Shown here: positions 4,024-63,331 of the stretch, piece by piece
How positions within the stretch are numbered: position 1 is the stretch's first letter
Layout of the letters: each line of letters starts with the position of its first letter
Origin: Lachnospiraceae bacterium
Lineage (GTDB): Bacteria > Bacillota > Clostridia > Lachnospirales > Lachnospiraceae
NCBI GenBank assembly: GCA_017470935.1
Contig: JAFUXG010000014.1
Coordinates: 1-64,000, forward strand
Direction: 5' to 3'
DNA: 64,000 nucleotides
The notes under the pieces: model-generated
What the model saw: the letters and a program-made list of their open reading frames with translations, nothing else
Told to the model about the DNA's origin: nothing
Databases searched by the model: none
Program-made: the position numbers and the translations under genes

Positions 4024-5922
4024 TCATAATTGCTGCCCATACACCAGCTTAATGAACTCCTCTGCCGGTACCGGCTTTGAGAAGTAATAGCCCTGTATGA
4101 AATCAATGTCTATCTTAGAAAGCTCATCCAACTGGTACTTCTCCTCAACACCCTCGGCAACGATTTCCAGATCCACAGCCTTGATCATATTGATTACGCC
4201 GCCCATGACCGCGCGGCGTTTTTCATTTTCAAAATACGCCTGGGTCATTTTCCTATCGAACTTAACGATGTTGATAGGAAGCTCTAACAGGTAGTCCAGG
4301 TTGGAGAAGCCTGTCCCAAAGTCATCAAGAGAAAATGTTATGCCAATGCTCCTAAGCTTTTCCATGTTACTTATAAGAATATCTGCTGACTGAATTGCCT
4401 TGGATTCTGTAATCTCAAGATTAATTCTCCTAGGATCAAGACCTACATCCTTGATTACCTTAATGAATTCATCTGCCAGGTCAGTACGCATACACTGCAC
4501 TGCTGACAGGTTGATCTCAAAATATTCAATGCCCTTTTCATAGAGCCTGCTTTCCTTCATAAACCGGCATGCCTTTTCAAAAACTATACGTCCTATCTCC
4601 AATATTAGACCGGTATCCTCTGCCACAGGAATAAATGCTCCAGGCGGGATAAGCTCACCCTCTGCATTAACTATTCTCACAAGGGCTTCAGCAGACACAA
4701 AGCGTTTCTTTGCAGTGGAATATATAGGCTGGTAATATACCATAACCCTGTCGTCCTTGATGGCTGAGATTATCATATCCTCAACCTCCTGTTCCCTGCG
4801 GTAGCCATCTGCCCATTCCTCATCCATAACAAGCATGCTTTCTGAGCTGTTTCTGTAATCCCTTCTAAAGGCACGCATCATTTCAAGCATGGATTCTGCA
4901 TCTCTTGCAATAAATGTGCTTGGGATCTCCGTATATACAAGCTCTATCTCTGCCTCGTCCCCCTCAATGATCCAAGCCCTGTCAAGAGCACTCTGAATCT
5001 TTTCTGAGCCTACTTCAATAGGGGTCTTTCTGGAAAATGTCACAACGTATTCCCACTCTCTGTATTTAAACACCTGTCCGCCGGAGCTTTGATCAAGTAC
5101 CTTTGCAAAATCCTTCAGGAAGCTGGCAACATTTTCATTGTAATAACGCTCGTAGAGATAATGTGGATTGGTGAAACGGATGGTGAGCATGGATATGAGC
5201 TCACCCCTGTTGTAGCACTGCTCAAGAAAAGCACTGAAGGCCAGGTCGTTGAAGCAGCCGCTTTCCCTGTCGATAAAGCTTTCCGGATTCTCAAGACGAA
5301 TGAACACGATAAGAGTTCCTATAGCGCTGGCAAAGCCAATGATAAGCAGCGCATTGTTCATGAACTGAACTGCAGCGGATATTACGAGCATAAACATCCA
5401 GGTCATCTCTGCGCCCCATCTTCTGCGGTTCATACGCCGTCTAAAGATTATGAGAATGGCAACATTTATAACCGTGAAGATAAATGCTGAAAGATATGTC
5501 ATGATCACCGCCGGACCATATGTATATAGGTCGGTACGGCTTGTGTGGTGAATACTGACCGGAATAATGGGAATGATGATTGTTACAATACCTAAGAATA
5601 TCTGGGAAGCAATTCTGTGAATGCGGATCATTCTGTTCTTCGCCCCCACATCAACGCTTGTGTAGTAATTCATGGCAAAAGCCATCCAGACCAAAGACAC
5701 AAGATAGGTCTTGCACACTGCCCGTGTAAATGAAGTATAATTGCCTGCTGCAGTGACAATGGCAACAATTGAAAGGGTATCAAAAATAAGCGCAATCAAA
5801 GTAGTAAAAAGAGCAACAAGAAATGCCTTCTTTGAGCGCAGCCATATTGTTTTTCTATTAAGTGACATTATGATGAGCAGTGATACCACCACAATGCCGC
5901 ATATCTGTACCTGTATATTCAT
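4024..5922 (-). CDS. Membrane EAL-domain c-di-GMP phosphodiesterase
   Basis: The 632-aa protein has about seven N-terminal membrane helices (residues 3-210), a degenerate GGDEF-like region at about 215-370 that lacks the signature, and a complete EAL domain from about 390. Key EAL residues are present: EALVR at 412-416, NLSAVQC, E503 in EITES, DDFGTG at 533-538, the loop K in IVKFD and E590 in AEGVEE. It should therefore hydrolyse c-di-GMP to pGpG. The start follows AAGGAACATAATTC on the minus strand. The architecture matches the protein at 20380, so the two are paralogs. The upstream 290 bp, shared with the divergent sigma gene at 6215, is AT-rich and shows no clear element. Confidence 0.88.
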   Translation of the reverse strand: MNIQVQICGIVVVSLLIIMSLNRKTIWLRSKKAFLVALFTTLIALIFDTLSIVAIVTAAGNYTSFTRAVCKTYLVSLVWMAFAMNYYTSVDVGAKNRMIRIHRIASQIFLGIVTIIIPIIPVSIHHTSRTDLYTYGPAVIMTYLSAFIFTVINVAILIIFRRRMNRRRWGAEMTWMFMLVISAAVQFMNNALLIIGFASAIGTLIVFIRLENPESFIDRESGCFNDLAFSAFLEQCYNRGELISMLTIRFTNPHYLYERYYNENVASFLKDFAKVLDQSSGGQVFKYREWEYVVTFSRKTPIEVGSEKIQSALDRAWIIEGDEAEIELVYTEIPSTFIARDAESMLEMMRAFRRDYRNSSESMLVMDEEWADGYRREQEVEDMIISAIKDDRVMVYYQPIYSTAKKRFVSAEALVRIVNAEGELIPPGAFIPVAEDTGLILEIGRIVFEKACRFMKESRLYEKGIEYFEINLSAVQCMRTDLADEFIKVIKDVGLDPRRINLEITESKAIQSADILISNMEKLRSIGITFSLDDFGTGFSNLDYLLELPINIVKFDRKMTQAYFENEKRRAVMGGVINMIKAVDLEIVAEGVEEKYQLDELSKIDIDFIQGYYFSKPVPAEEFIKLVYGQQL

Positions 5923-17038: not shown

Positions 17039-17239
17039 TTTGCGAAACTCATAAATAACGTATATTGTGTTGTGAATATTGTATAGATTCCATAAGCAGG
17101 TGCTTTGATGCCGCCGGTACTTAATGAGCAGTTTACTGCGAATTTAGTACCGCTGCGTGCATCGAGCAGCGAGAGCGTGCCTGCGTTGGAACTATACAAT
17201 GTTCACAACATAATATAGTGTACATATGAGTTTTGCAAA
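17039..17239. repeat. Long imperfect inverted-repeat element
   Basis: The ends match in inverted form: TTTGCGAAACTCAT at 17039-17052 and ATGAGTTTTGCAAA at 17226-17239. Inside them, TATATTGTGTTGTGAAT and its continuation to TTCCA (about 17060-17091) pair with about 17189-17219, and the centre holds nested GC-rich hairpins (for example GGTACT/AGTACC). It looks like a miniature inverted-repeat element or structured RNA. It ends 31 bp before the start of the HD-GYP gene. Confidence 0.65.
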
Positions 17240-17270
17240 TGGTAAAGGTTTTTTTCGGGAGAACGCATTG

Positions 17271-19631
17271 ATGGATGAACATATTAAAAAGATTAACAGA
17301 AGTCTTGTAACAGGATGGACGCTGATAGTTCTAATCCTGGCAGCGGCATACATTATGGAGGTTGTGAAGGGAGAGAGAAGCCTTGGCTATCTCTTTGTAT
17401 TTTTGCTGTTTACCATTCTTCCGGCGGCTTTTGTGTTGGTCCGCTATCTTACAAAGCCTGCAAGGGAAAGCCTCAAATATGAGATAGTTGTGGGCTATTT
17501 CATCATGTACTGCTTTGTTATGATAACAGGAAGCACCACCATGGTCTTCTGTTATATTCTTCCCATGCTCTCACTTCTTGTGCTGTTCCATGAGCCAAGA
17601 ATCATCTTAGCAAGCGGGATCGCTTCTATGATAGTCAATATCATTTCTGTCATAATCAGACTTTCCAATGGAGAATTAAATGAACACAACAGCAAGGATG
17701 TGGAGATTCAGCTGGCTCTGCTTTTCCTGTGCTTTCTTGGCTCTTATCTTGCCGCAAGGCTCTATGATGAGATCCATTCCCAGAATATCAAGTTTACAGA
17801 GGATCTTGAGGCTCAGAACGAGGAGATTCGTCAGCAAAGCGAAGAGCTTACAAGAAAGAATGATGAGATAATCGCCCAGAACGAGGAGATACGCCTTGCG
17901 GGTGAGGAGCTGGAGCGAAAGAACGAAGAGATAACTGCCCAGAATGAGGAGATAGCCGATATCAATGAGGAGCTTACGGCCCAGAATGAAGAGATTCGTG
18001 CCATGAACGAGGAGATACTAGAGCGCAATGACCAGATGGAGCAGATGACAATGCAGACCATCACCACCATTGCCAATACAATAGATGCAAAGGATGAATA
18101 TACAAGAGGCCACTCCCGCCGTGTTTCGGAATATTCAGCAGCCATTGCCAAGGAGATGGGATACAGTGATGAAGAGGTGGCGGATGTAAGATTTATCGGA
18201 CTTTTGCATGACATTGGCAAGATAGGAATTCCGGATGCGGTGCTTAATAAGCCGGGAAGACTTACCAATGAGGAATACCAGGTTATGAAGAGCCACACCA
18301 CTGTAGGTGCGGAGATCCTTAAGGATATTGATATGATCAAGGGTCTTGATATAGGTGCCAAGTACCACCATGAGCGGGTGGATGGCAAGGGCTATCCGGA
18401 TGGACTTAAGGGGGATGAGATCCCTATGATCGCACGTATTATTGCAGTGGCAGATGCCTATGATGCCATGTCCTCAAACCGTGTGTACAGACGTCATTTA
18501 AACGAGGACAAGGTGCTCTCCGAGTTAAAAAGGGGCGTGGGCACCCAGTGGGACAGTGAGTGTGCCCTTGCCATGATCAGGCTTATAGAGGAGAAGAGGC
18601 TTCCCAAGGTCAATACGGATGAGGATGCAGCCATGGTTCAGCAGGCAACAACCATCCTTTCCCGTGTCATTGATTATGCCGAGGATAAGGGTGCGGAGCT
18701 GGTTGGTGATCTTGACGATCTGACTGCTACCTTTGGAAGAGAAAGAGGACGCGCGGAGCTTCAGAATGCCATTGCTGAGAAGGGACATGGCTCCCTGTTT
18801 ATTTTCGATATAGATCATTTCCATAGGATTAACGAGACTGAGGGCTTTGTTGTGGGTGACCACTATCTGAAGGTCATGGTGGAGCTTATAAGAGCCTGTG
18901 CAGACGGTCTTGTAATGTCAAGATTCGGGGCTGATGAATTTGTAGTGTACTATGATAAGGCTGATACAGAGGCAGAAGCCAAGGAGTTTGCAGACCGGTT
19001 CTTCACGCTCCTTGAGGATAGAATTTCAGTGGACGAGAGAATACGCAATATGGCCGTATCCGTTGGTGCCACTGAGGTAATGACGGAGAAGGATCAGGTT
19101 ATGGTGCTCTATGAAAATGCAGACAAGGCAATATACGTTGCCAAGCAGCAGAAGGGCAACGCCTTCTACTGCCACCACATCAGTGATGACGAGGATTCCC
19201 TAAGCTACGTTGAGGCTGTGGATCTTAAGCAGCTTATTGACGTGATTCAGAATAAGGAGAGCTACAAGGGCTCAATGCTGACGGCATATCCTGAATTCAC
19301 CAGAATGTACACATACATAAGCAATATTGCTGAGCGCAACCAGCAAAATATTCAGATAATATTGTTCACCATAACCTCTGTCAATGGAATCAAGGTTACG
19401 GTGGAGGAGAGGGACCGTATTATGGGACTTCTTCAAAACGCTATCGTCAATTCCATCCGTAACGTGGATATATCTACAAGATACAGCAGTACCCAGTTCG
19501 CGGTGCTTCTCATGAATCTCAGTGAGAAGGATACCAAGGACGTGGCAACCAGGATCATGACGGAATTCTACCGCACCTACGATCTTCGCGAGGTGGAGCT
19601 GCACTATGATTCGGCGGACCTGTCTAAGTAA
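17271..19631 (+). CDS. Membrane HD-GYP phosphodiesterase with two GGDEF-like domains
   Basis: The 786-aa protein has about six N-terminal membrane helices (to about residue 175), a coiled coil at about 177-263 built on repeats of AQNEEI, an HD-GYP domain at about 267-450 with LLHDIGKIG and HHERVDGKGYPDG, then a GGDEF domain with GADEF near residue 552, and finally a second, clearly decayed GGDEF-like part (RYSSTQFAVLL). The HD-GYP residues are intact, so c-di-GMP hydrolysis is expected; cyclase activity is doubtful because the signature is altered. I choose 17271 because CGGGAGA fits it; an ATG at 17226 lies inside the inverted repeat. Confidence 0.88.
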   Translation: MDEHIKKINRSLVTGWTLIVLILAAAYIMEVVKGERSLGYLFVFLLFTILPAAFVLVRYLTKPARESLKYEIVVGYFIMYCFVMITGSTTMVFCYILPMLSLLVLFHEPRIILASGIASMIVNIISVIIRLSNGELNEHNSKDVEIQLALLFLCFLGSYLAARLYDEIHSQNIKFTEDLEAQNEEIRQQSEELTRKNDEIIAQNEEIRLAGEELERKNEEITAQNEEIADINEELTAQNEEIRAMNEEILERNDQMEQMTMQTITTIANTIDAKDEYTRGHSRRVSEYSAAIAKEMGYSDEEVADVRFIGLLHDIGKIGIPDAVLNKPGRLTNEEYQVMKSHTTVGAEILKDIDMIKGLDIGAKYHHERVDGKGYPDGLKGDEIPMIARIIAVADAYDAMSSNRVYRRHLNEDKVLSELKRGVGTQWDSECALAMIRLIEEKRLPKVNTDEDAAMVQQATTILSRVIDYAEDKGAELVGDLDDLTATFGRERGRAELQNAIAEKGHGSLFIFDIDHFHRINETEGFVVGDHYLKVMVELIRACADGLVMSRFGADEFVVYYDKADTEAEAKEFADRFFTLLEDRISVDERIRNMAVSVGATEVMTEKDQVMVLYENADKAIYVAKQQKGNAFYCHHISDDEDSLSYVEAVDLKQLIDVIQNKESYKGSMLTAYPEFTRMYTYISNIAERNQQNIQIILFTITSVNGIKVTVEERDRIMGLLQNAIVNSIRNVDISTRYSSTQFAVLLMNLSEKDTKDVATRIMTEFYRTYDLREVELHYDSADLSK

Positions 19632-20345: not shown

Positions 20346-20379
20346 ATTGCATATATATGTAAGAAATATGGAGGGGAAC

Positions 20380-22305
20380 ATGTTTCCGGGTAATGATTTT
20401 CATCTGGCAAGTTATTTTGCTGCATTTTTAATAAGCTTTACATGTATTCTATATACATTTCTACAGAGAAGGACTGATAAGCCTCAGAACAGGCTTTATA
20501 TTACTATGCTCATAATTGTTACATTTAATGCGATCTCTGGAATGGCAACTGTTGTGGCAGAGCCTTTTCTTGCCACATCCTCCATTGCAAGGCTTGTGAC
20601 TAATTTAGGTGATTTTACATATTTTCTGTTTCACTCGGCTCTTTGTCCTGCATTTTTTCTATATGTATCATGTGTGTGCGGAGCAGCTGAGAAGTATGGG
20701 AATAAGGAGACCCTTCTATATGGATTTGTATTCTATGTGACGGAGATTATGGTGTTATTTAATCCCCTCTTTCACTGGGTATATTATTATGATGATAATT
20801 ATGCATTTACAAGGAACTGGGGAGAGAACGGAATATATCTTGCCGCTGTTTTGTACTTTATGTTCGCCATGGCAAGACTGCTCTTTTCCTGGAAGGCGGT
20901 CAATACCAAGAGACGCTTTGCGCTGCTATACTTTTTCATCATAGTTGTGGCAGGGGTATTGCTTCAGTTCATAGATATGAATATTAAGGGAGAGCTGTTT
21001 GCGGAGGCTCTTTCACTTATGGGAGTTATGCTGGCTGTGGAGGCTGAGGATGATCTTGTGGATGTGGATACAGGCTTTTATAACCGGAAGGCTCTTAGGA
21101 TGGATGCCAACAGCTATATTGTCAATAAGACTAAGTTTGAGATAATATGTATCAAGGTAACTAATGCGGATGTAATCCAGAAGCTGACGGGCTCTGCCAA
21201 TGTGAATATTTTGGCACAGGTGCTTTCGGATTATCTTAAGACTATAGTGCCCAGGTATTATATATATCAGACAAACCCGGAGACCTTTGTGCTTACCCTT
21301 ATGGAGAATAATCTTGAGGGTGGGAAACAGGTTGCCACTCGTATAAGTGAAAGGTTTGATAAGCCATGGGACTGTGGAATGGCAGATGTTATGCTGAATG
21401 CGGTTGTTATGGATGTGAAGGTGCCGGAGGAGCTAACCAATACAGTGGATCTTTTCTATATGGCAGACAGTGTCGTGCCGGATGGACATTCCAAAAAGGT
21501 GCTTACAGGGGAGGATCTTGATTACATATTGAGGCGTGGCGAGATTGAGAATGCCATTGCCAGGGGCTTGGATGAGGATGGATTTGAGGTATACTATCAG
21601 CCAACGTATCATCTTGACGGTTTGAAGCTTCATGGAGCAGAGGCTCTTATAAGATTAAATGACAGCATAATGGGAAGACTGTTCCCGGATGAATTCATTC
21701 CGGTAGCTGAACAGGCAGGCATGATAGATGCCATTGATGAATTTGTTTTGATGCAGGTGTGTGATTTCCTTGAGAGTGGAATTCCGAAGCAATACGGTAT
21801 GGATTGCATTAATGTGAATCTCTCGGTTATTCAATGTCTACAGCCGGGATTTGTGGATCGGATATGTAAGATTGTTGACGGATATGATATAGAGAAGTCA
21901 TGGATTAACTTTGAGATTACAGAGTCAGTGGCGGCAAGTGATTATGAGATATTAAGCGGGGTTGTTAAGGACCTTAAGAGCCGTGGGTTCAGATTTGCCA
22001 TGGACGATTACGGAACAGGATATTCCAATATGCAGTCAATATTTGCAATTGATTTTGATGTGGTCAAGATTGACAAGAGTATTCTCTGGGGTGCTGAGGA
22101 GACTGAGCTTGGCAGGATCATACTTGGCAATTCCGTAAGAATGATAGACCAGATGCACAGACAGATACTTGTGGAGGGTGTTGAGACCAAGGAGCAGGTA
22201 GAGATGTTAAGAGAACTTTGTGTGGATTATCTTCAGGGATACTATTTCTCTAAGCCTATACCTAAGAATGAGTTTATTGAGTATATCCAGGCGAAGGCAG
22301 GATGA
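20380..22305 (+). CDS. Membrane EAL-domain c-di-GMP phosphodiesterase
   Basis: The 641-aa protein has about seven N-terminal membrane helices (to about residue 215), a degenerate GGDEF region without the signature (about 220-370), and an EAL domain with all key residues: EALIR, NLSVIQC, EITES, DDYGTGYSN, VVKIDKS and EGVETKEQ, ending QGYYFSKPIP. It should degrade c-di-GMP. It is a paralog of the protein at 4024-5922 with the same domain order. The start is 20380, set by GGAGGGG; the TTG at 20347 lies next to the hairpin and has no site. A terminator follows at once. Confidence 0.88.
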   Translation: MFPGNDFHLASYFAAFLISFTCILYTFLQRRTDKPQNRLYITMLIIVTFNAISGMATVVAEPFLATSSIARLVTNLGDFTYFLFHSALCPAFFLYVSCVCGAAEKYGNKETLLYGFVFYVTEIMVLFNPLFHWVYYYDDNYAFTRNWGENGIYLAAVLYFMFAMARLLFSWKAVNTKRRFALLYFFIIVVAGVLLQFIDMNIKGELFAEALSLMGVMLAVEAEDDLVDVDTGFYNRKALRMDANSYIVNKTKFEIICIKVTNADVIQKLTGSANVNILAQVLSDYLKTIVPRYYIYQTNPETFVLTLMENNLEGGKQVATRISERFDKPWDCGMADVMLNAVVMDVKVPEELTNTVDLFYMADSVVPDGHSKKVLTGEDLDYILRRGEIENAIARGLDEDGFEVYYQPTYHLDGLKLHGAEALIRLNDSIMGRLFPDEFIPVAEQAGMIDAIDEFVLMQVCDFLESGIPKQYGMDCINVNLSVIQCLQPGFVDRICKIVDGYDIEKSWINFEITESVAASDYEILSGVVKDLKSRGFRFAMDDYGTGYSNMQSIFAIDFDVVKIDKSILWGAEETELGRIILGNSVRMIDQMHRQILVEGVETKEQVEMLRELCVDYLQGYYFSKPIPKNEFIEYIQAKAG

Positions 22306-56229: not shown

Positions 56230-57951
56230 TTATCCAATTGATGCAAACAATGCTGCAATCTCATCAGGTGAAAGCTGCTTGTTGGGATCGTCAGAAACCG
56301 GTGTCGGTGCAGGCTGTGGAGCAGGAGCAGGCTCCTCTTTCTTAGGAGAGGGTTCAGCGGCAGCGAACAGTGCAGCAATCTCATCAGCAGACAACTGCTT
56401 GTTAGGATCTTCAGAAACCGGTGCCGGCTGTGGAGCAGGAGCGGGCTCTTCTTTCTTAGGAGCCGGCTCAGCGGCAGCAAACAGTGCAGCAATCTCATCG
56501 GCAGATAACTGCTTGTTAGGGTCTTCAGAAACCGATGCCGGTGCTGGCTCCGAAGCAGGAGCGGGTTCTTCTTTGCCTACTACTGTAAAGGTAGGTGTAA
56601 ATGCTTCCTCGGCAGGCTCTTCTTGCGCAGGCTGGCTGGCCGATGTACTATCCGCAGCAGCAAATAGTGCAGCAATCTCATCAGCAGAAAGCTGCTTGTT
56701 AGGATCTTCGTCAAGTGGTGCCGGTGTTGGAGCAGGGGCTTCGGCAATCACAGGCTCAGGCTCAGCTGCAGGGGCTTCGGCAACCACAGGCTCAGGCTCA
56801 GCTGCAGGGGCTTCGGCAACCACAGGCTCAGGCTCAGCTGCAGGGGCTTCGGCAATCACAGGCTCAGGCTCAGCCGCAGGAGCTTCGGCAACCACAGGCT
56901 CGGGCTCAGCCACAGGGGCTTCAGCAATCACAGGCTCAGACTCAGCCACAGGAGCTTCGGCAACCACAGGTTCGGGCTCAGCCACAGGAGCTTCGGCAAC
57001 CACAGGCTCAGGCTGCTCAGCCACAGGGGCTTCGGCAACCGCAGGATCGGGCTCAGCCACAGGGGCTTCGGCAACTACGGGCTCAGGTTCTGATACAGGA
57101 ACCTCTTCAGCCATCATTGCTTCTTCTGGTAATGTCTCATCTGTCGAAGCAGAACCAGCATATGCATTCATATCAGGTGCCGGGGCTTCAACAGGGGGAA
57201 CAGGCTGCGCCATATCCTGATAGACAGGCTGTGCCATAGGCGGTACCTGCATACCCATAGGCGGTGCCTGCATTGGAACTGACTGTACCCGGGCAATATT
57301 GCTTGATATATTCTGTAATTCATGTGCCACATTGTTTATCTGCATACCAAGAGACTGATCCATGCCTGTGGGCTGGGATTTCAGATAGTCAACTATGGAT
57401 TCAAGCATTGCAACCACATCAGCATTGTTGGGCTGCTGTATCTGGTCAAAGCCCTGCGTCATGGTATCATTTAAATTATTGCGTATATCCTTAAGGGTTG
57501 AAATAAGTTTAGTCGTGTTGCTCTGGTCGTACTTTATCAAAAGCTTTGTTGACTTGTTCTGGGCATTGGCAAGAACTGAAAGATTCTTATGAAGGGCCTC
57601 CTGGCTGTCGGCGTAGTTGCCGCGAAGGGTTGCAACATTCTCAGCAGCCTGTCTTGTATATAAATATGTAGCCTTTCCAAGCTGTGCCTGAGCGCTGCTC
57701 ATTCCCTCAATCTGTGTGGACAGGTCATCCATGCCGCTCTTGATCTGGACATTGAGAGACTTATTCTTTATATTGATAAAGTTCACAATGTTCTGGGTTA
57801 AAATGTAGGCACATATAAGAAAAATTGCACTTACACCTGCCACCGCAAATATCAGCTGCGGATAAGCGATAAGAATGTAAATGACCGCAATTCCGGCAGT
57901 CAGTGTGGCAACAACGGAAAGTGCCAGTTTGTTGTCTTGTTGTTTGTTCAT
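56230..57951 (-). CDS. Membrane coiled-coil protein with four FliM-like DEIAALF motifs
   Basis: The 573-aa protein has two membrane helices (about residues 8-55), a helical or coiled-coil region (about 60-190), a Pro/Met-rich stretch, then ten imperfect 12-aa repeats (EPEPVVAEAPVA type), and finally four copies of PNKQLSADEIAALFAA, beginning near residues 415, 476, 514 and 554; the last ends the protein. The motif resembles the N-terminal LSQDEIDALL segment of FliM, which binds CheY. No flagellar gene is in the window. The function is unknown; the tail looks like a flexible arm with repeated docking sites (inference). The start is preceded by AAGGGGGCC. Confidence 0.8.
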   Translation of the reverse strand: MNKQQDNKLALSVVATLTAGIAVIYILIAYPQLIFAVAGVSAIFLICAYILTQNIVNFINIKNKSLNVQIKSGMDDLSTQIEGMSSAQAQLGKATYLYTRQAAENVATLRGNYADSQEALHKNLSVLANAQNKSTKLLIKYDQSNTTKLISTLKDIRNNLNDTMTQGFDQIQQPNNADVVAMLESIVDYLKSQPTGMDQSLGMQINNVAHELQNISSNIARVQSVPMQAPPMGMQVPPMAQPVYQDMAQPVPPVEAPAPDMNAYAGSASTDETLPEEAMMAEEVPVSEPEPVVAEAPVAEPDPAVAEAPVAEQPEPVVAEAPVAEPEPVVAEAPVAESEPVIAEAPVAEPEPVVAEAPAAEPEPVIAEAPAAEPEPVVAEAPAAEPEPVVAEAPAAEPEPVIAEAPAPTPAPLDEDPNKQLSADEIAALFAAADSTSASQPAQEEPAEEAFTPTFTVVGKEEPAPASEPAPASVSEDPNKQLSADEIAALFAAAEPAPKKEEPAPAPQPAPVSEDPNKQLSADEIAALFAAAEPSPKKEEPAPAPQPAPTPVSDDPNKQLSPDEIAALFASIG

Positions 57952-61560: not shown

Positions 61561-61573
61561 AAGGGTGATGATT

Positions 61574-62167
61574 ATGACAAAATATGAAATAATGACTCAT
61601 TTGATAAATAAAAAAAACGGGTATCTATTTACTTCAGATGTTGAGAATGAGGGTATTTCGAGAACCTATATGGCGAGATATGTTAGGGAAAATAATCTTG
61701 AAAAGGTTGCTGAAGGAATATATGTGACTGTTGAAACATGGCCGGATCAACTGTATATTATTCAAACTAAGAATCCTAAGGTGATATATTCCGGTGAGAC
61801 TGCATTGTATCTGAATATGCTTTTGGAAAGAGAATATTCCGAGATACAGGTCAGTGTTCCCAATGATTATAATGGCTGGAGACTTAGGGAAAAGAAAATA
61901 AAAGTCCATAAAGAAAAAGATGAAATATATGGACTTGGCATGTGTGAAATAGAGACCAATTTTGGGAATAAAGTAAGGGCATATAATAGAGAAAGAAGTA
62001 TCTGTGACCTTATAAAAAGACGTTCCCAATTTGAAGTTCAGGATTATCAAACAGCCATAAGAACATATATGAGAGGCAGGGATAAGGATTTATCATTACT
62101 CGTAATATATGCTGAAAAACTCAAAATAAGGGATGAGGTTATGAAATACGTGGAGGTAATGGTATGA
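61574..62167 (+). CDS. abiEi: AbiEi-type antitoxin (type IV toxin-antitoxin)
   Basis: The 197-aa protein has an N-terminal winged helix (about residues 1-60; GYLFTSDVENEGISRTYMAR, ending AEGIYVT) and a C-terminal AbiEi domain (IYSGETALYLNMLLE through RERSICDLIKRRS). It acts both as repressor of its own operon and as antitoxin to the nucleotidyltransferase that follows. The ATG at 61574 fits AAAGGG at 61559-61564; in-frame GTG 61565 and ATG 61568 are too close to the site. The operator lies directly upstream. Confidence 0.85.
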   Translation: MTKYEIMTHLINKKNGYLFTSDVENEGISRTYMARYVRENNLEKVAEGIYVTVETWPDQLYIIQTKNPKVIYSGETALYLNMLLEREYSEIQVSVPNDYNGWRLREKKIKVHKEKDEIYGLGMCEIETNFGNKVRAYNRERSICDLIKRRSQFEVQDYQTAIRTYMRGRDKDLSLLVIYAEKLKIRDEVMKYVEVMV

Positions 62168-62184
62168 TATAATGAGCAAAGTGG

Positions 62185-62206
62185 CAGAACATGCTTGCAT
62201 GTTCTG
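62185..62206. promoter_or_regulatory. Palindrome between antitoxin and toxin genes
   Basis: CAGAACATGC (62185-62194) and GCATGTTCTG (62197-62206) form a perfect palindrome with a 2-bp centre; pairing can extend to GCAAA/TTTTGC outside. It lies in the 76-bp gap ahead of the toxin start and could damp toxin transcription or translation, or bind protein. Confidence 0.6.
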
Positions 62207-62243
62207 ACATTTTGCGAAAAAACACATGGAGGCGACAGACGAC

Positions 62244-63191
62244 ATGATATTAACAGCAGCCGCATTAAAGGGGAAAGTGAAGAGGGTAGCCAACAATGAT
62301 GCACGCAGAGCAGAAGTATTGATGAGGATTTTCTTCATGGAGAGATTGCTTGAACGTGTTTCATTATCAAAATATAAAGATAACTTTATTCTAAAGGGCG
62401 GAATGCTTGCATCCTCGTTAATCGGGGTTGACATGCGTACAACAATGGACATGGATACCACGGTTAAGGCATTGCCATTAAATGAAAAAGATATAACAGA
62501 TGTAATTAATGACATATGTTCCGTTGAAATAGAGGATAATATTACATTCGAAATTCAATATGTAGAAAAAATAATGAATGATTTTGAATATCCTGGAGTA
62601 AGACTTCATATACAAGGACATTTTGAAGGCATCAGGCAGCCGATAAAAATTGATGTTTCAACTGATGATGTAATAACGCCTTCTGCTATTGAATATGATT
62701 ATAAGCTTATGTTTGAAGATCGTACTATCCGTATAATGACTTATAATGTAGAAACACTATTGGCAGAAAAATTGCAGACAATATTGAGCAGGGGAATTGC
62801 AAACACAAGACTTAGAGATTATTATGATGTGCATATGATTACCATTAATACTGATTTTTCTTGGGAAACTCTTTCGGAAGCTTTTAATGCAACCTGCAAA
62901 AAGAGAGAAACGATTTTTTCTAAGGAGATAATACAAGAAGAATTACAGCACATAGACATGGACGATAAGATGAAAACAAATTGGGATCTTTTTAGGACAA
63001 AAAATTCTTATGCTGCGGAAATGGAATGGATGGATGTGTTGCGATCCATTAAGGATACTTTAGGTAAAATTGAAGAGCTTGCATTATATCGTTTAAAGCT
63101 TGAAATGGAAAAAGGAGAGAGAGAGCGATTCTTGAGGAAGGCACGATATCCTCAGATGATTAAAAAGAGAATTAAAGTTATAGATTTATAG
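62244..63191 (+). CDS. abiEii: AbiEii/AbiGii-family nucleotidyltransferase toxin
   Basis: The 315-aa protein is a DNA-polymerase-beta-like nucleotidyltransferase of the AbiEii group. Motif I is LKGGMLASSL (GG at 52-53) with the metal-binding pair D69 and D71 in MRTTMDMD; the third acidic residue is D137 in KIDVSTDD; the late family motif is LLAEKLQTILSRG followed by RLRDYYDVH. Members bind GTP and arrest growth, often giving phage resistance. I start it at 62244 where GGAGG at 62228-62232 is placed; the ATG at 62226 overlaps that site. A terminator follows the stop codon at once. Confidence 0.88.
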   Translation: MILTAAALKGKVKRVANNDARRAEVLMRIFFMERLLERVSLSKYKDNFILKGGMLASSLIGVDMRTTMDMDTTVKALPLNEKDITDVINDICSVEIEDNITFEIQYVEKIMNDFEYPGVRLHIQGHFEGIRQPIKIDVSTDDVITPSAIEYDYKLMFEDRTIRIMTYNVETLLAEKLQTILSRGIANTRLRDYYDVHMITINTDFSWETLSEAFNATCKKRETIFSKEIIQEELQHIDMDDKMKTNWDLFRTKNSYAAEMEWMDVLRSIKDTLGKIEELALYRLKLEMEKGERERFLRKARYPQMIKKRIKVIDL

Positions 63192-63230: not shown

Positions 63231-63331
63231 CACTCTCAAATTATCAACTAATAATATAGTCTGATATAGTATAATTATCGAGCAATTATTCTTAATTGAG
63301 TTATTTTTACGATGAAAGGAAGGATGAAGAT

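Follow-up and report, generated by a model that had tools for sequence, protein, structure and literature searches.

What purpose is served by a membrane protein that ends in four nearly invariant copies of a motif resembling the N-terminal segment of FliM, and that is encoded among c-di-GMP enzymes? This question is raised by the window, i.e. the whole 64,000-nucleotide stretch of Lachnospiraceae DNA analysed here, which a preliminary description had characterised as rich in c-di-GMP enzymes and free of flagellar genes. Of ten ORFs scanned, two encode EAL proteins and a third a protein with HD plus GGDEF domains (4027-5922, 17226-19628 and 20347-22302), which bears out the first part of this characterisation. 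The second holds for the 17 other window ORFs that were scanned, none of which matched a flagellar family, but not for the genome, which carries a flagellar-chemotaxis locus elsewhere: on contig C69, which is not the window contig, FliM was found with Pfam, together with CheY and, as judged by eye, FliY, CheC, CheD, CheW, FlhF, FlhG and structural genes. The genome is that of a flagellated bacterium; it has 61 receiver-domain matches at E<=0.001, and its FlhG matches ParA-type Pfam models. An AbiEi/AbiEii toxin-antitoxin pair (61565-63191) also lies in the window, with a ParA-like ORF next to it at 63296.

A membrane protein with four copies of a FliM-like motif

The array gene occupies positions 56230..57951 of the minus strand, to which all features below belong, and encodes a protein of 573 residues, whose membrane hairpin is followed by what is probably a coiled coil and then by an acidic, proline-rich tail and the motifs. 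By hydropathy, two membrane segments start near residues 8 and 27 and form a two-helix hairpin with a very short loop and conserved alignment columns (57808..57930); from the flanking charges, both of its ends are predicted to be cytoplasmic. The segment behind it (57277..57807) was called a probable coiled coil by eye, the helix and hairpin assignments being based on hydropathy and sequence, and in alignments it contains conserved residues that are common to distant proteins of the same class, here termed class I. The acidic proline-rich repeat stretch of the EPVVAEAP type (56731..57090, limits approximate), on the other hand, differs among orthologs.

The repeated unit, DPNKQLS[AP]DEIAALFA, occurs at 56659..56706, 56476..56523 and 56362..56409 (copies 1 to 3, each DPNKQLSADEIAALFA) and at 56242..56289 (copy 4, DPNKQLSPDEIAALFA), where only the residues SIG and the stop codon follow, placing it at the extreme C-terminus. 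Copies 1-3 are the same in protein sequence and differ by synonymous changes only, four to five per pair, while copy 4 departs from them by a single A-to-P replacement. A second conserved tail motif, FTPTFTVVGK (56572..56601), is interspersed among them and is found, by pattern, as an FTPTFTVV-type motif in 19 of 24 genus loci. The ORF, the copies and the hydropathy thus agree with the original description of four motifs at the C-terminus of a membrane coiled-coil protein, the coiled coil itself being a call by eye. Plus-strand ORFs that overlap the gene merely mirror the repeat and were dismissed as spurious.

Neither Pfam nor NCBIfam scans yielded a family name for this protein. The Pfam model Prok_Ub does match it at the motif, a match we consider spurious because no stretch passes alone and the best stretch covers the motif only. 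A solved-structure search with the tail, among chains of at least 20 residues and in a listing from which short FliM peptides are absent, returned one meaningless match.

The motif is under purifying selection while its surroundings vary

The protein was matched in 25 of the 26 genus genomes at E<=0.01, strongly in 24 and by a weak tail match in G017; the sole genome without a match, G007, is, like G017, less than 80% complete. A search for FliM across the genus was positive in 24 of 26 genomes: G012 (95% complete, 410 contigs) has the array and no FliM was found in it, G007 has FliM without the array, and G017 has neither, save for its weak tail match.

Across the 24 genus loci we counted 80 motif copies with a loose pattern that includes partial proteins. 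Intact genes carry two to five copies, single copies belonging to genes cut by contig ends. Within the core, Ile and Leu never vary and Asp-Glu hardly ever does; EI is followed by Ala in 77 of the 80 copies. In the genus alignment, the linkers between the motifs vary in both length and sequence, and in between-genome pairs drawn from 74 copies the uncorrected pN was 0.055, compared to a pS of 0.83. The near-invariance of the motif amid variable linkers, claimed originally from the window sequence alone, therefore extends to the genus, and the array of intact orthologs is under strong purifying selection. A profile search for the motif across the genus, a kind of search that had been suggested as a check, confined the strong matches (E<=2.1e-8) to the array gene or its contig-end fragments, the next-best matches lying at E>=0.026.

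These data bear on the simplest alternative, that the array is low-complexity filler produced by slippage and has no specific function. The copies do lie within repetitive, acidic, proline-rich sequence, and their number does vary between intact genes. A filler, however, would be at odds with the pN and pS values, with a motif held constant between changing linkers, with the position of the last copy, which ends 3-7 residues from the C-terminus in motif-bearing class I proteins, and with the association of the motif with FliM genomes described below. Poor conservation in orthologs had been named in advance as the mark of filler; selection and distribution point the other way, and we have discarded this explanation as scarcely credible. 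In four tails (L016, L023, L030 and L036), degenerate motif-like copies, such as LTTADLDALY and MTIDDIDALL, are seen upstream of the array, which suggests that copies continue to be gained and to decay.

The motif resembles the N-termini of FliY and FliM

CheY-P binds the conserved EIDALL motif of FliM and FliY (PMC9126983), and EIDAL-type N-termini of both proteins have been described as the CheY-P site (PMC6946799). We built a scoring matrix from the array copies and ranked the 56,068 windows of 147 ORFs of the same genome, a non-random background made up of retrieved stretches only, the flagellar locus among them. The N-terminus of FliY ranked first, a helix in the CheC domain of FliY second, and the N-terminus of FliM fourth with the genus matrix and third with a matrix from the family; in the profile search, neither FliM nor FliY was among the matches at E<=10. 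The FliM of this genome starts with MADVLSQSEIDALLKQ and its FliY with MDGMLSQEEINALLGNM. By pattern, FliM of the genus reads LSQ[SN]EIDALL, with one EIDTLL (26 FliM loci, including that of the window genome), FliY mostly LSQEEINALL (a few FliM loci showed only one of the two proteins), and the array mostly LS[AP]DEIAALF.

All three thus have in common the amphipathic helix pattern L-S-x-x-E-I-x-A-L-[LF], whereas the array replaces Asp or Asn by Ala and Leu by Phe, adds a DPNKQ leader, and stands at the C-terminus or in the interior of membrane proteins rather than at an N-terminus. The replaced residue corresponds to Asp12 of E. coli FliM; of the 80 genus copies, 77 have Ala there. Asp12 forms a salt bridge with Lys119 of CheY when the E. 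coli complex is simulated (PMC7012829), so its loss weighs against the array motif being a plain copy of FliM. FliY, it should be said, already carries Asn at this position in most of the genus. The CheY of the window genome is closest to those of entries 1TMY and 4IGA, both Thermotoga maritima CheY, in the latter with a FliM peptide; aligned on E. coli numbering, it has Ala at position 119. The core notion of membrane-tethered FliM-like motifs receives strong, if indirect, support from the ranks of FliY and FliM and from the company of FliM genomes; with the characteristic Asp missing, CheY is no more than a candidate partner. Membership of the FliM family was ruled out, as the motif lacks this Asp and is not N-terminal, and as Pfam finds no FliM, CheC or SPOA domain in the window protein.

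The likeness is also open to a different interpretation, namely that the motif docks onto another component of the flagellar or chemotaxis system, such as CheC, CheD, FliG or CheA, or helps the scaffold to self-assemble, its similarity to FliM and FliY being a convergence of helix starts. Aspartate carbamoyltransferase, with LSVEEIDELL, scores well too, and this generic LSxEEI helix start, together with the Prok_Ub match at the motif, implies that some of the similarity reflects a grammar common to helix starts in general; the second-ranked CheC-domain helix and the Ala in place of Asp point in the same direction. Such a convergence would nevertheless leave the FliY N-terminus as the top match and would have to account for a whole DPNKxLSxDEIAALF unit common to two architecturally different membrane proteins, and we consider it unlikely.

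The array is nearly restricted to flagellated genomes of one family

In a family sample of 299 genomes, one per genus except for two of the window genus, the motif was present in 65 genomes at E<=0.05, of which 63 are FliM-positive, with one to thirteen matches per protein. The two FliM-negative genomes had single weak matches (G213 at 0.011, G315 at 0.016), and at E<=1e-3 all 51 genomes with the motif had FliM, compared to 151 of 299 in the sample (Fisher p ~6e-18, with no correction for the tree). As the motif occurs almost only in flagellated relatives, the array probably recruits to the membrane a protein of the flagellar or chemotaxis system. Conversely, 100 of the 151 FliM-positive genomes lack the motif at E<=1e-3, so that the array must be dispensable for flagella.

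Among 398 genomes sampled across the phylum, eight matched at E<=0.01: three belong to the family and have strong arrays, and the remaining five have single matches at 0.005-0.01; strong arrays outside the family were thus absent from this sample. Eight named loci comprised four from Lachnospiraceae bins, two from other Clostridia bins and two from Chloroflexota, the last two of which were set aside as low-complexity; on this basis the family is taken to be Lachnospiraceae.

FliM scores in the family fall into a high group of 126 genomes and a low group of 25, a split that was chosen after the scores had been seen. The low group contains one genome with a motif match at E<=1e-3 (G132) and none with the second carrier described below. 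The two score groups suggest that the family harbours two flagellar lineages.

Two membrane scaffolds carry the array

A survey of 40 stretches retrieved around motif matches revealed two carriers that are set apart by their architecture, hairpin versus single span. Class I proteins are of the window type, with a hairpin, a coiled-coil-like segment and the last motif close to the C-terminus. In class II proteins, the array copies lie in the N-terminal part, ahead of a basic linker, a single membrane segment and an additional tail.

By profile, a class I protein was present in 36 of the 51 genomes with the motif at E<=1e-3. In the 15 others, with the carriers of G132 and G279 left out, the array sits on class II in ten, probably also on class II in G300, as judged by coordinates, on a protein of class I-like architecture in G182, and, by a crude test, on a protein unlike either class in G257. 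These counts rest on an N-terminal profile, A5, which replaced a narrower one (A3, reaching 5 of 299 family genomes) and matched 54 of 299 at E<=1e-3; its five FliM-negative matches (G043, G142, G143, G145 and G225) all had E>=8e-5. With a threshold of E<1e-9, picked after the list had been seen, A5 defines a class I set of 45 genomes, nine of which lack the motif at E<=1e-3. Seven of these nine were surveyed, G191 and G278 being left out: G147, G198 and G242 carry one diverged copy each, G152, G289 and G296 encode short proteins with no copy, and the protein of G178 is cut by a contig end.

Class II, too, exists without the array. In 20 genomes whose array sits on another protein, class II has no DEIAALF-type array, with the provisos that in G257 it bears one EEIDGLL and that one chain (L221) is truncated. 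Some class II members bear motifs close to FliM (MSEEDIDALLNAA, LSPEEIDAMLNAA). At locus L138 (G137:C22), a run of N interrupts an array that has at least seven copies, and ORFs were called to both sides of it. Class II N-termini read E-x-YLD-x-LL in 29 of 50 chains under a strict pattern, counting truncated chains and one protein twice, and are somewhat reminiscent of the FliM N-terminus.

One carrier lies near cheV, the other near parA-parB

We examined 34 class II loci and found cheV near class II, with at most three ORFs between them, in 28 of the 29 that were testable: nine of nine among the first ten (L149 at a contig end), 16 of 17 among the next twenty (L203, L204 and L221 at contig ends, L205 without cheV), and three of three in four genomes without FliM (L308 at a contig end). 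CheV was identified by CheW plus Response_reg domains with Pfam in two examples and by similarity to one of them in the others. That a second array family is encoded near cheV lends support to the original idea of a docking array.

At E<=1e-3, class II is present in 122 of the 299 family genomes, or 121 after removal of a FliM-negative match in G098 (E 1.8e-4). These are 117 of the 126 high-FliM genomes, none of the 25 low-FliM genomes, and four genomes without FliM. Its absence from the low-FliM genomes indicates that class II marks one flagellar lineage rather than flagella generally. The class II protein of the window genome (G000:C34, L203:7829-9820) has no array and adjoins hisH- and hisF-like genes, the upstream side of its locus missing at the contig end.

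The surroundings of class I are of another kind. No che genes were found among the scanned neighbours of the window gene, and 12 of 29 class I loci outside the genus lie near parA, parB, DUF4446 and DUF3881. The window genome has its own parA-parB-DUF4446-DUF3881 locus, which encodes a class I paralog of 190 residues (L267:6355-6927, G000:C4) with a hairpin and a coiled-coil segment and without a tail. In view of this tail-less paralog, the window gene has the appearance of a copy that has moved and bears the array.

Discussion

Taken together, the evidence makes it probable that the array is a scaffold on which some client from the flagellar or chemotaxis system docks. The hairpin would anchor this scaffold in the membrane and the coiled coil would probably oligomerise it, while the flexible cytoplasmic tail would present four short amphipathic helices that mimic the EIDAL helix, each binding the same partner as the N-termini of FliM and FliY. 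Since the second carrier lies near cheV, we favour a client with a receiver domain, either CheY-P or CheV through its receiver, tentatively and at somewhat less than even odds. Such a client could be collected or buffered at the membrane near receptors or motors, and an array that is multivalent, tethered and borne on a flexible tail would be well suited to buffering a weakly bound partner or concentrating it locally.

A serious rival, close behind the receiver, is FlhG, a MinD/ParA-like ATPase that determines how many flagella form and where. The array would then not bind CheY at all; it would play the part of a landmark or confinement factor, as GpsB, HubP or FipA do, and collect FlhG, alone or carrying FliM or FliY, at chosen sites, a possibility that we rate below the receiver and hold to be doubtful. 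FlhG is reported to contact FliY in B. subtilis and FliM in monotrichous species (PMC12826062, PMC12327844); it binds the extreme N-terminus of FliY, for which the first 36 residues are enough, and its site for GpsB, which confines B. subtilis flagella, overlaps that for FliY (PMC12327844). An FlhG client would fit the FliY N-terminus as the best match of the motif, the DQAxxLR-type N-terminus of the FlhG in the window genome (a motif taken from PMC12327844), and the position of class I next to parA-parB, where the short paralog lies too. It would not explain the second array family near cheV, and a parA-parB neighbourhood is no proof of FlhG.

Comparison with known systems yields partial parallels. 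HubP/FimV proteins have a membrane anchor and a long acidic cytoplasmic region, as well as periplasmic LysM-like and C-terminal FimV/TPR domains, as defined in PMC12918733. The window protein agrees with the anchor and the acidic region in hydropathy and composition, its orientation being a prediction, but its anchor is a hairpin, Pfam detects neither LysM nor FimV/TPR domains in it, and strong arrays are limited to this one family in the phylum sample. GpsB is a membrane-associated coiled-coil protein which is not known to bear repeated EIDAL-like motifs, and no GpsB/DivIVA-type domain was found in the window protein by Pfam. ChePep and CheO, compared here by description only, are presented as lineage-restricted accessory chemotaxis proteins confined to the Campylobacterota, of which ChePep helps to recruit CheZ to the poles and CheO, unlike the window protein, has no obvious membrane segment. 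In the literature searched, which comprised titles and the starts of abstracts with subscription journals mostly uncovered, EIDAL-like arrays of this kind were not described. As far as can be told, then, the kind of motif is known and its tandem display on membrane scaffolds is new.

Lachnospiraceae are major bacteria of gut and rumen, and the motor switch is where the EIDAL helix is known to serve for docking. A broader proposal, which we offer as possible though hardly probable, is that flagellated Lachnospiraceae possess a lineage-specific and hitherto undescribed layer of flagellar control. In it, interchangeable arrays of decoy EIDAL motifs would sit on two scaffolds, one frequently beside the chromosome-partition locus and the other beside cheV, and bind CheY-P or FlhG in competition with the motor; the array would have moved between these scaffolds in evolution. 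The cheV-linked class II is found in nearly all sampled high-FliM genomes, yet Pfam matched none of the six members that were scanned. If the proposal is true, CheY-P or FlhG would be stored or clustered at membrane sites, tuning switching or flagellar placement. Tandem EIDAL-like copies on membrane scaffolds would reproduce, away from the motor, the site at which it receives its input, and with such arrays a cell could buffer, position or compete for CheY-P or FlhG by simple means.
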